From Chloroherpetonaceae bacterium (GTDB lineage: Bacteria > Bacteroidota > Chlorobiia > Chlorobiales > Thermochlorobacteraceae): a DNA stretch of 64,000 bases. The position numbers and the translations under genes are program-made. Below are positions 22,736-27,329 of this stretch, piece after piece. Numbering within the stretch: position 1 is the stretch's first letter; each line of letters begins with the position of its first letter. A model generated the notes under the pieces. It was not told the origin of the DNA. It did no database searches and saw only the letters and a list, made by a program, of their open reading frames with translations. The stretch is taken from contig JANWWM010000025.1 in assembly GCA_025055975.1 (NCBI GenBank), positions 1 through 64,000 on the forward strand, read 5' to 3'.

Positions 22736-22826
22736 GAGTTTGAACATTTAAGTTGCGCCAACGGGCAAAGCGGCGCGATTTATTGGCGCGACAAACTTGT
22801 CTCATCAACCAACAAAGGAGCAAACG

Positions 22827-25349
22827 ATGAAATCGCTCGCCAAACTTTTTCTGCTTCTCGTTTTCCTGCCCGGCGTTGCGACGGCTCAAGACGCCATCGG
22901 CGAAACGGAATATGTCGAGTTCATTCGGTTCATTGACGAAAATGGGAATTCGACCTGTCGCCAATTTTCGCGCTCGGCGGAAGAGATGAGGGCGTTGGAA
23001 GAAGCCAAAGCCAAGCTTGGAATGGTCGTTCTGCCCAACACGATTGGACGAAGGGCGCAAGGACAAGGACTCGACATCGTCTTGCGCGCCACGCCGCAGA
23101 TGTTGCAATTCCCTGCCGCCGTAACGGCGTTTGAAGTCGCCGCGCAACGCTTCGAGAACTTCATCGCCAATCCCATCACCGTCGTGATGGACGTCGATTA
23201 TGGACCAACGCGCTTTGGTCAGCCATATGGACCAGGGGTTCTGGGTTCGACGAGCGCGGCGATAGTGTCGCTATCGGGCTACGCGGTGCGTCGTTTCGCC
23301 GATTCGCTCAAAGCGCGCGCGCCGGGCTATGGCGCCATCTACGACGCGATTCCGCAACCCGTGCCCAACACGGCGGGCGCGGCAAATCCGCTTCCGTCGG
23401 GCACCACGCCAAACCTTCAAGCGCTTGGCATTCTCAACGCGAATGGAAATCAGTTGAGCGCGGTTCCGAGCATTGGCTTCAACTCCAACTTTCCGTTTGA
23501 CCTCGACCCGACAAATGGCATTTCGGCGGGGCAGACCGACTTCGACGCGGTCGCCGTTCACGAGATTGGGCACGCTTTGGGGTTTGTGTCCGTCATTGGC
23601 GGCAACACGAACTTTTTGCGCACGTGGGATTTCTTCCGCTTCCGTCCGGGCGCGGTAACGAACCTGCAAACCTTCGCCACGGCAACGCGCGTCAACACCC
23701 CCGGACCAAGTCCAAACGGGGGCGACCAAGTCTTTTGGGACGGCGAGCGCGAATGGGAGGTCTCGACGGCGCGCGGCGACCGCACGGGCGGCGACGGACA
23801 ACAAGCGTCGCATTGGCGCGACGACGCGCAGCGCCTCCACGTGCCGTTGCCTGAACGAAAAATCGGCATTATGGATCCCAACCTCGCCGCAGGCGTGCGC
23901 GATACGCTCAAATTCGCCGATTGGAAAGCGCTCGGCATAATGGGCTGGCAAGTAACCAAAGTCGAGGAGGTCAAGAACGTTCGCCTCTCGAGCGATTTTC
24001 AAACGCCAACGTCCGTGGCGTTGCAATGGACAAATCCCTCGCTTACCGTTGGCGGCGGCGCGATTGGCAACCTTGAAATCCTCGTCTTCCGCAATGGACA
24101 ACTCATCAGAGCGTTCTCCAACGCGCAACCGGGCGCGACGCTCTCGCTTCTCGACACGGGATTGACGCAGTATTCGACCCAAACCTACCTCATCTACGCG
24201 CATAATCCCGGCGTTGAAGATTCAGGCTTTCCCGTTGCGAGAACGGTTACCGTTGGCGGTTCGCCGCGTCCTGCCGAAGCGACGGATTTTTCGGCGCGAA
24301 GCAACGGAAGCACGGCGGTTCTGCGAATCACCGCGCCTACGCGACACGACGACGGCACGATTCTGCACAACCTTAGCGCGATGCTCCTCTATCGCAACGC
24401 GCCGCAGCCGAGCAATCTTTTCCTTTCCGTTCCGCTTTCGCCAACCGATACGGGCAGAACATTCGTCGTTGCCGATACGCCGCCGCGCCGCGCCGTTCCG
24501 AACTACGCCTACAACGTCGTGTTCGTTGGCTCTGCGCCGCCAAATGTGAACGGCGAAGGTCCAGCGCGCTCCTCGCCAACCGTGCGCGCGGGCGTGGTGC
24601 AAAACGCCAACTACTTCGAAACCTTCGAGACCAGTCGTCAAAGCGTGATTGAAGATTTCGCTTGGGATAGCACCAACGCGCTCGCCTATCAAGGCTCGTG
24701 GTCGTTTGCCGCGTTGAACTACGGCGCGAACCTCAACGCTTCCGCTTACATTCCGCAAACGCGATTGCTCACGAATGGCGAACTGCGCTTTTGGACGATT
24801 TGCCGCGCGGGCGTTGGCGACACGGGCTTCGTCGAAATCTCACGAAACCGCGGCGCGACGTGGTCGCCCGTTCTTTCGCTCACGCGCAACTCCCGTCCCG
24901 AATGGGCAAACGGACAAAACGTGTGGTTCGAGCAAAGCGTCTCGCTCTCGGCGTTTAACTTGGACACGGTCGTCGCTCGCTTCCGACTGCAAAGCGGGCA
25001 AAACGGCGGCGGATTCGGCTGGCTCATCGACAACGTCGCCCTGACGCAAGGAACGCTCTCCGCAAACGACCGCGCCAACAAACCCTTTGAGTTCGCGCTC
25101 GAACAAAACTATCCCAATCCGTTCAACCCCGCGACGACGATTCAGTATGAACTGGGGGAAACGAGCGACGTCAAACTGCGCGTCTTCGACGTCTTGGGGC
25201 GCGACATAGCGACGCTCATCGATGCGCGTCAGAGCGCGGGTCGCTACCGAGTCGAGTTCAACGCGAGCGCGCTTTCGAGCGGCGTTTATTTCTATCGCCT
25301 CGAAACGCCGTCGTTCTCGCAAACGCGCAAGATGGTCTTGGCGAAGTGA
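22827..25349 (+). CDS. Secreted zinc metalloprotease-like protein with T9SS C-terminal domain
   Basis: SD AAAGGAG then MKSLAKLFLLLVFLPGVATAQ; VHEIGHALGF zinc motif with downstream GIMDPN; C-term FALEQNYPNPFNPATTIQYEL...SSGVYFYRLETPSFSQTRKMVLAK. Confidence 0.87.
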   Translation: MKSLAKLFLLLVFLPGVATAQDAIGETEYVEFIRFIDENGNSTCRQFSRSAEEMRALEEAKAKLGMVVLPNTIGRRAQGQGLDIVLRATPQMLQFPAAVTAFEVAAQRFENFIANPITVVMDVDYGPTRFGQPYGPGVLGSTSAAIVSLSGYAVRRFADSLKARAPGYGAIYDAIPQPVPNTAGAANPLPSGTTPNLQALGILNANGNQLSAVPSIGFNSNFPFDLDPTNGISAGQTDFDAVAVHEIGHALGFVSVIGGNTNFLRTWDFFRFRPGAVTNLQTFATATRVNTPGPSPNGGDQVFWDGEREWEVSTARGDRTGGDGQQASHWRDDAQRLHVPLPERKIGIMDPNLAAGVRDTLKFADWKALGIMGWQVTKVEEVKNVRLSSDFQTPTSVALQWTNPSLTVGGGAIGNLEILVFRNGQLIRAFSNAQPGATLSLLDTGLTQYSTQTYLIYAHNPGVEDSGFPVARTVTVGGSPRPAEATDFSARSNGSTAVLRITAPTRHDDGTILHNLSAMLLYRNAPQPSNLFLSVPLSPTDTGRTFVVADTPPRRAVPNYAYNVVFVGSAPPNVNGEGPARSSPTVRAGVVQNANYFETFETSRQSVIEDFAWDSTNALAYQGSWSFAALNYGANLNASAYIPQTRLLTNGELRFWTICRAGVGDTGFVEISRNRGATWSPVLSLTRNSRPEWANGQNVWFEQSVSLSAFNLDTVVARFRLQSGQNGGGFGWLIDNVALTQGTLSANDRANKPFEFALEQNYPNPFNPATTIQYELGETSDVKLRVFDVLGRDIATLIDARQSAGRYRVEFNASALSSGVYFYRLETPSFSQTRKMVLAK

Positions 25350-25428: not shown

Positions 25429-25458
25429 AAAACGGACGCTCGTTGAAGCGTCCGTTTT
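25429..25458. terminator. Bidirectional intrinsic terminator between convergent genes
   Basis: AAAACGGACGCT-CGTTGA-AGCGTCCGTTTT, 12-bp perfect stem. Confidence 0.87.
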
Positions 25459-25477: not shown

Positions 25478-25798
25478 TTACCGCGCAAAGAAGGGCTTGT
25501 CGTAAAGTTCAAGCCGTTTTTCGGGCGTGAAGCGGAAATCGAGAATGTCGCCTTCGGGGCGAACCTCGATGAGCGCGCCTGACGGGCAAGCGTCGGCATC
25601 GAAGCAAAGTTGGCAAGAAATGCAGGCTTTTTGGTCGATGTAGTATCGAAAGCCGCCTTCTTGCACGTCGCCGTAAAGTTTCACGCCAATCGCGTTAACT
25701 TTGGGCGGGCACTGGTCCAAACAGAATCCGCACGCGATGCACAAGTTCTCGATGATGTCATACTTGTTCTTCGCGCGCTTCTTCACGGCTGCTGCCAT
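25478..25798 (-). CDS. pscB: PscB-like photosynthetic reaction centre iron-sulfur protein (2[4Fe-4S] ferredoxin domain), short N-terminus
   Basis: YDIIENLCIACGFCLDQCPPKVNAIGVKLYGDVQEGGFRYYIDQKACISCQLCFDADACPSGALIEV...GDILDFRFTP: strongly resembles the C-terminal ferredoxin domain of Chlorobium PscB from recall. Confidence 0.75.
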   Translation of the reverse strand: MAAAVKKRAKNKYDIIENLCIACGFCLDQCPPKVNAIGVKLYGDVQEGGFRYYIDQKACISCQLCFDADACPSGALIEVRPEGDILDFRFTPEKRLELYDKPFFAR

Positions 25799-25844
25799 AG
25801 CAGTGTCCTCCGTTCTGGTTAGCGGTTGTTGAAATTTTCCAATA

Positions 25845-25852
25845 GGAATATA
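25845..25852 (-). promoter_or_regulatory. Candidate promoter element TATATTCC upstream of the pscB-like gene
   Basis: Same TAnnTT(C/T) motif as other genes here; 46 nt upstream of the start. Confidence 0.3.
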
Positions 25853-25937
25853 ATCGCTTCGCAAATCGTTCCGAAACGCGCCTTGGGGGAAGCGTTGGCG
25901 GGGGAAGCCGTTATAGCCGATTGAAATCGAAGCGTCA

Positions 25938-27329
25938 ATGAGCGTCGTTCAACAAGAACCCATCGCCGCCATTGCGACGGCGGTCGGCGAAAGCGCCATC
26001 GCCATCGTGCGAATGAGCGGCGCGGGCGTTTTGAACATCGCCGACAAGGTGTTTCGCAAAGCGGGCAAAAAGCCGTTCTCGTTTTTGAACGCGCCGTCGC
26101 ACACGGCGCACTACGGCTATGTCGTGGATTCTCGCGGAGAATGGGTCGACGAAGCGATGGCGATCGTGTATCGCTCCCCGCGCAGTTTCACGATGGAAGA
26201 CGTGGTCGAGTTCAATTGCCACGGCGGCGTCGTCGCAACGCAGACCGTCTTGGAAACCTTGCTCGACGCGGGCTGCCGCTTGGCGCAGGCGGGCGAATTC
26301 ACGCGCCGCGCCTTTCTCAACGGACGAATCGACCTCGTGCAAGCCGAAGCCATCGGCGAGATGATTCACGCCAAAACCCACGCCGCCTATCGCGCCGCGC
26401 TCGCGCATCTCAAAGGCGACCTTTCCAAAAAACTTTCCGCCCTGCGCGACGACCTGCTCAACGCTTGCGCAATGCTCGAACTGGAGCTCGATTTCAGCGA
26501 AGAAGACGTTGAGTTCCAAAGCCGAGACGAACTCCGCGCCAAAATGCGCGAACTCAAATCGAACCTCATCGAGCTTGCCGATTCGTTCAAACTCGGCAAA
26601 CTCGTCCAAGAAGGCGCCAAAACCGCCATCGTCGGCAAACCCAACGCGGGCAAATCCACGTTGCTCAACGCGCTCTTGGGCAAAGAACGCGCCATCGTGA
26701 GCGACGTCGCGGGCACGACGCGCGATTACATCGAGGAAAGTTTCGCTATCGATGGCGTTTTGTTCAAACTCATCGACACGGCGGGACTGCGCCCCACGCT
26801 CGACCAAATCGAGAGCGAAGGCATACGGCGCAGTTACGAAAAAATCGAAGAAGCCGATTTGATTCTCTACCTCGTCGATGCCTCAACGCCCGTCGATGCC
26901 GATGAAATCAACGCAATCCGAGCGCTCAAAGAACGCAATCCCGACGCGAAGTTTCTGCTCGCGCTGAACAAAATCGACAAGGGCGTTAAGGCGGAGTTGA
27001 GCCTTGCCGACATCGAGACGGTCAAAATCTCCGCCCTCGCGCGAGAAGGCATCGCGGACTTGAAGCGAAAAATGAAAGCCCTGGCGTTAGGCGCGGCGAC
27101 GCTCTCGGAAGGAAGCCTGATGCTCACGAGCTTGCGTCATTACGAGGCGATTCGCAACGCCTTGCAAAGCCTGGAACAAGCCGAAACGCAACTGCGCCTC
27201 AACGCGCCAACGGAACTCATCGCCTTCGACCTGCGCGACGCTCTCAACCACATCGGCGCGATTACGGGACAGGTTACGACCGACGACGTGCTCAACCTCA
27301 TCTTCTCGCGCTTTTGCATCGGCAAATAG
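25938..27329 (+). CDS. mnmE: tRNA uridine-5-carboxymethylaminomethyl modification GTPase
   Basis: IAAIATAVGESAIAIVRMSG; GKPNAGKSTLLNALLG; DVAGTTRD; C-terminal FCIGK. Confidence 0.96.
   Translation: MSVVQQEPIAAIATAVGESAIAIVRMSGAGVLNIADKVFRKAGKKPFSFLNAPSHTAHYGYVVDSRGEWVDEAMAIVYRSPRSFTMEDVVEFNCHGGVVATQTVLETLLDAGCRLAQAGEFTRRAFLNGRIDLVQAEAIGEMIHAKTHAAYRAALAHLKGDLSKKLSALRDDLLNACAMLELELDFSEEDVEFQSRDELRAKMRELKSNLIELADSFKLGKLVQEGAKTAIVGKPNAGKSTLLNALLGKERAIVSDVAGTTRDYIEESFAIDGVLFKLIDTAGLRPTLDQIESEGIRRSYEKIEEADLILYLVDASTPVDADEINAIRALKERNPDAKFLLALNKIDKGVKAELSLADIETVKISALAREGIADLKRKMKALALGAATLSEGSLMLTSLRHYEAIRNALQSLEQAETQLRLNAPTELIAFDLRDALNHIGAITGQVTTDDVLNLIFSRFCIGK

Follow-up and report, generated by a model that had tools for sequence, protein, structure and literature searches.

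The window analysed here, a stretch of 64,000 nucleotides, belongs to the genome of a hot-spring relative of the green sulphur bacteria (family Thermochlorobacteriaceae), with Candidatus status, known from a draft metagenome assembly (G000; 92 contigs, 85% complete, contamination 0.22%). Three congeners, G092, G093 and G094, are available for comparison. The gene of interest, pscB, is flanked by the divergent mnmE and by a convergent gene for a secreted protein (Table 1). The initial annotation had extended its ORF over positions 25478-25852. The reading frame and the quoted peptide are indeed present on the minus strand, but the upper limit, 25852, lies in non-coding DNA, the coding sequence starting at 25798 as placed by its ATG and the GGAGG motif. 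The surroundings had been read correctly: the starts of pscB and mnmE are divergent and 139 nt apart, the hairpin at the end of pscB has runs of A and of U on each strand, as expected from the bidirectional terminator that had been proposed, and pscA is not adjacent but lies on another contig, C72. The hairpin folds with -20.8 and -24.4 kcal/mol on the two strands (z -4.4 and -5.6), and is absent from the list of a generic terminator scan. No match to the sigma-70 consensus was detected by a promoter scan of the pscB-mnmE intergenic region. Comparison of pscB with that of the congener G093 shows 29 synonymous and 0 non-synonymous changes. The gene is thus under strong purifying selection, which identifies its product as a working protein and the ORF as far beyond chance.

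Table 1. Features of the pscB locus, and the regulator gene found near pscA on other contigs
Feature	Position	Strand	Remarks
Secreted protein gene, Por secretion tail	22797..25349	+	Pfam PF18962, 4.6e-10; convergent with pscB; other new neighbour of pscB (synteny)
Hairpin, 12 bp, flanked on each side by A and T runs	25429..25458		Probable bidirectional terminator of pscB and the convergent gene
pscB	25478..25798	-	106 aa; two [4Fe-4S] motifs; no N-terminal arm
pscB-mnmE intergenic region	25799..25937		139 nt between divergent starts; expected place of the pscB promoter
Ribosome-binding site GGAGG	25807..25811	-	8 nt from the pscB ATG (25798); identical in 4/4 genomes of the genus
mnmE	25938..27329	+	Pfam MnmE_helical, 3.8e-53, also TrmE_N; new pscB neighbour in this genus
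CarH/LitR-like regulator gene	L064:8071-9096 (G000:C72), L071:6681-7724, L076:6866-7912		Upstream of pscA

Among proteins of solved structure, the best match of the window protein (phmmer) is the PscB subunit of Chlorobaculum (1.2e-43), followed by that of Chloracidobacterium (1.7e-21), generic ferredoxins scoring 1e-7 or weaker. Pfam and NCBIfam returned generic Fer4 families only, with no PscB-specific family match in either. Two cysteine motifs are found, C20-x2-C23-x2-C26-x3-C30 and C59-x2-C62-x2-C65-x5-C71, and all eight cluster cysteines are invariant in an alignment of 19 PscBs; a second motif two residues longer has been described as typical of PscB (PMC9751088). The ferredoxin core is about 70% identical to that of PscB from Chlorobaculum tepidum and other Chlorobiaceae (PDB 6m32_B, 8gwa_B), with which the protein shares the eight cysteines, the longer second motif and the presence of pscA in the genome, whereas its C-terminus differs (..FDLRFLHRFHRE versus ..LYDKPFFAR). 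The lysines K149 and K153, reported as docking sites for ferredoxin in Cba. tepidum PscB (PMC10968294), correspond to Q29 and K33, so that the second lysine alone is kept. Chloracidobacterium PscB (7vzg_B; L094-L097) is 58% identical over 65 core residues, with the same cysteine motifs; unlike the window protein, it bears its own Ala/Pro/Lys-rich arm and is encoded after pscA. According to PMC9751088, the counterpart of PscD in this organism, PscZ, is unrelated to PscD. Closer still are the PscBs of two Chloroherpetonaceae genomes (G087, G088) and those of the Thermochlorobacteriaceae outside the window's genus (G090, G091, G096, G097; GBChlB): 78-98% identical to the window protein, they share its C-terminus, are likewise armless, and are encoded directly after pscA. 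An AlphaFold2 model (19 sequences) has a mean pLDDT of 50.9, too low for judging fold or fit.

The long Pro/Ala-rich N-terminus of classical PscB is missing: as first noted, only MAAAVKKRAKNK, 12 residues, precedes the ferredoxin domain. A longer pscB starting further upstream could be rejected, since the in-frame codons preceding the ATG at 25798 are not Pro/Ala-rich and the upstream sequence does not resemble an arm. The survey of the class Chlorobia covered 98 genomes, 86 of them from Chlorobiaceae and 12 from the groups f1 (Thermochlorobacteriaceae, the window's family; four genera, eight genomes with a full-length PscB), f3 (Chloroherpetonaceae, two genera) and f4. All ten full-length PscBs outside Chlorobiaceae, from both f1 and f3, are armless; left out of this count are G095, because of a scaffold gap, and G089, whose contig ends before pscB. 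An apparent pscA fusion with a truncated pscB in G095 turned out to be an artefact, its scaffold containing a stretch of N. Chlorobiaceae PscBs have about 120-210 residues before the domain, rich in Pro, Ala and Lys, including a conserved island, LNxNLGRSGxRQESALP, recognized in 38 of 48 sequences by a strict pattern. This island was recovered in two Chlorobiaceae controls and not found in genome-wide searches of nine armless genomes, which led to rejection of the idea that another gene provides the arm in trans. Over the genomes compared, armlessness characterizes both families in their entirety and is not a peculiarity of the window gene. As genuine PscBs of f1 and f3 lack it, the long Pro/Ala/Lys arm defines a subtype of PscB and not PscB itself. 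Since the Chloracidobacterium protein is also armed, the armless clade may have lost the arm, or the arm may have been gained twice.

The position of the gene varies in another way. In all four genomes of the window's genus, pscB is flanked by mnmE and the Por-tail gene. Their pscA lies on a different contig and keeps the same upstream gene as elsewhere. The two genes are adjacent in G090, G091, G096 and G097, which cover the remaining three f1 genera, and in G087 and G088 of f3. In Chlorobiaceae, too, pscB comes directly after pscA, and the two share a contig in 75 of the 78 genomes with both genes; in two of the three exceptions pscB is near a contig start (G053, G067), and in the third (G044) it is a fragment. 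The 5' neighbour of mnmE in three g4 genomes is a different gene, not pscB. A single relocation, in the common ancestor of the genus, explains why pscB stands beside mnmE in 4/4 of its genomes. Separation from pscA is a trait distinct from armlessness and is confined to this genus. An operator common to the upstream regions of pscA and pscB was sought within the genus; the longest common words were of 10 nt, equalled by roughly 5-7% of shuffles, and the word present in three genomes, ATCGACCATA, is not kept in the window's genome; a shared operator was rejected. Elsewhere in the family, in G097 (another genus; L074:11251-14021), mnmE immediately precedes the CarH-like gene and pscA-pscB, and in its congener G096 mnmE and pscA are on different contigs. 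Contig C39 of G095 (L079) carries a pscA with 98% identity to the one in the window's genome; G095 belongs to another genus and has 13% contamination, and this copy is probably a binning contaminant.

Taken together, these data make it very probable that the window gene encodes the functional FA/FB subunit PscB, reduced to its core, of a homodimeric type I reaction centre in a Thermochlorobacteriaceae bacterium, relocated in this genus. Of the two options offered by the initial annotation, the right one is that of a divergent lineage with a minimal PscB. The other was a soluble PscB-derived ferredoxin. Such a protein would no longer bind the reaction centre, and the true FA/FB protein would be another one or be encoded in DNA missing from the assembly. 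This reading could draw on the 85% completeness of the assembly, on the exit of pscB from the pscA operon and on the missing arm. It is nevertheless improbable, and found no support, since the genome has no other PscB and also encodes pscA (on C72, with its FX-type motif CIGPVYGGTC), pscD and fmoA. A second pscB, beside pscA or elsewhere, was not found in the 85% complete assembly, the next match (31% identity, E 0.004) being a ferredoxin of the complex I type. G092, 100% complete by the tool's estimate, likewise has this copy only. Armless PscBs standing right after pscA in the sister genera and in f3 also argue against a soluble role, as does the near-zero level of non-synonymous change.

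The assembly, a draft metagenome in 92 contigs, invites the suspicion that the arm was lost through an annotation or assembly error, or that the gene owes its position to a chimeric contig or to contamination. This is very improbable, and is refuted by G092, G093 and G094, where the gene recurs with an equally short N-terminus and between the same neighbours; the low contamination and the upstream in-frame sequence point the same way. Even less credible is a generic 2[4Fe-4S] ferredoxin with no tie to reaction centres, despite the fact that Pfam and NCBIfam propose generic Fer4 families alone. It is refuted by the gap between 1e-43 for PscB and 1e-7 for the best other protein, and by the tree. 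In the latter, which leaves most inner forks open and has long outgroup branches, all PscBs are separated from the genome's own NuoI-type ferredoxins (97/85), Chlorobiaceae forming a clade (98/100). The likeness to Chlorobium-type PscB that had been noted at first sight is thus borne out, and the window protein does not group with generic ferredoxins.

As the relocated core PscB, the protein would be located on the cytoplasmic side of the PscA dimer, where electrons would pass from FX to its two [4Fe-4S] clusters and then to a soluble ferredoxin. The N-terminal loop of PscB is described as wrapping FMO in Cba. tepidum (PMC9529944). It is the first residues of the Chlorobiaceae arm that bind FMO, a contact that cannot be made in Thermochlorobacteriaceae and Chloroherpetonaceae. 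Because the armless lineages keep fmoA, the joint with FMO must presumably be built otherwise. FMO would then be held by other surfaces, candidates being a longer PscA tail, the different C-terminus of PscB, or other subunits. In the window's genus, pscB has left the pscA-pscB operon and would be expressed separately, from its own upstream region beside mnmE.

Other traits set the armless lineages apart. Their PscD lacks about 22 N-terminal residues (L188, L189, L190 versus L083, L084, L086): the Pfam match starts at about position 19-24 in f1, f3 and f4, one f1 copy being cut by a contig end, versus position 1 in nearly all Chlorobiaceae, and the protein starts with MPITKSGNAVHK in G000 and G092. 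Conversely, the N-terminal tail of PscA is about 24-27 residues longer (L034-L043, L077 versus L044-L063), with 75-79 residues before RTETR in f1, f3 and f4 versus 51-52 in Chlorobiaceae, counts in which the script gave G091 and one Chlorobiaceae genome further-upstream starts. A gene related to CarH, with a MerR-type HTH, B12-binding_2 and B12-binding domains and a W-x9-EH motif, lies upstream of pscA in 12/12 genomes of f1, f3 and f4 (that of G095 on a gapped scaffold) versus 0/86 in Chlorobiaceae. Control of the reaction centre by light or B12 through this CarH/LitR-like regulator is possible.

PscA and the complex I subunit NuoI also have a short motif in common. The C-terminal tails of NuoI in f1, f3 and f4 contain one to three copies of a PMMAAKLAAKK-like motif (L191, at G000:C66:13537 onward; L192-L200), absent from 20 Chlorobiaceae NuoI tails. 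The N-terminal tails of PscA display P-L/M-QAAKLQA in g1, g3, f3 and f4, and a degenerate form in g2 and g4 (L034-L043). The pattern common to the PscA and NuoI tails, P-x-M/L-x-A-A-K-L-x-A, is absent from both Chlorobiaceae proteins. Two genome-wide pattern scans of six genomes gave matches at nuoI or pscA sites only, with regexes designed after the sequences had been seen and narrow in codon choice, which missed the pscA of the window's own genome. One might guess from these tails that the two proteins have a common partner. A broader scenario, which we consider unlikely as a whole, would have the cytoplasmic face of the reaction centre rearranged as a whole in the armless lineages (no N-terminal arm on PscB or PscD, longer PscA tail), the PscA-NuoI motif joining the reaction centre and complex I through a common partner or a direct tether, and CarH-like, B12-dependent light sensing controlling pscA, a control from which pscB would have escaped in this genus.

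No description of the armless PscB, of the pscB relocation or of the PscA/NuoI motif was found in the literature, as covered by titles, abstracts and chosen passages, with subscription journals thinly represented. The relocated pscB shows that a phototroph of this group can do without the pscA-pscB operon, conserved though it is elsewhere. The cryo-EM picture of FMO attachment to the green-sulphur reaction centre rests on one species; as two sister families keep FMO without a PscB or PscD arm and with a longer PscA tail, this picture is not general. The armless families amount to a natural deletion experiment on the function of the arm, for which the cultured Chloroherpeton thalassium (PMC9318685), whose family is armless here, may provide a test case.
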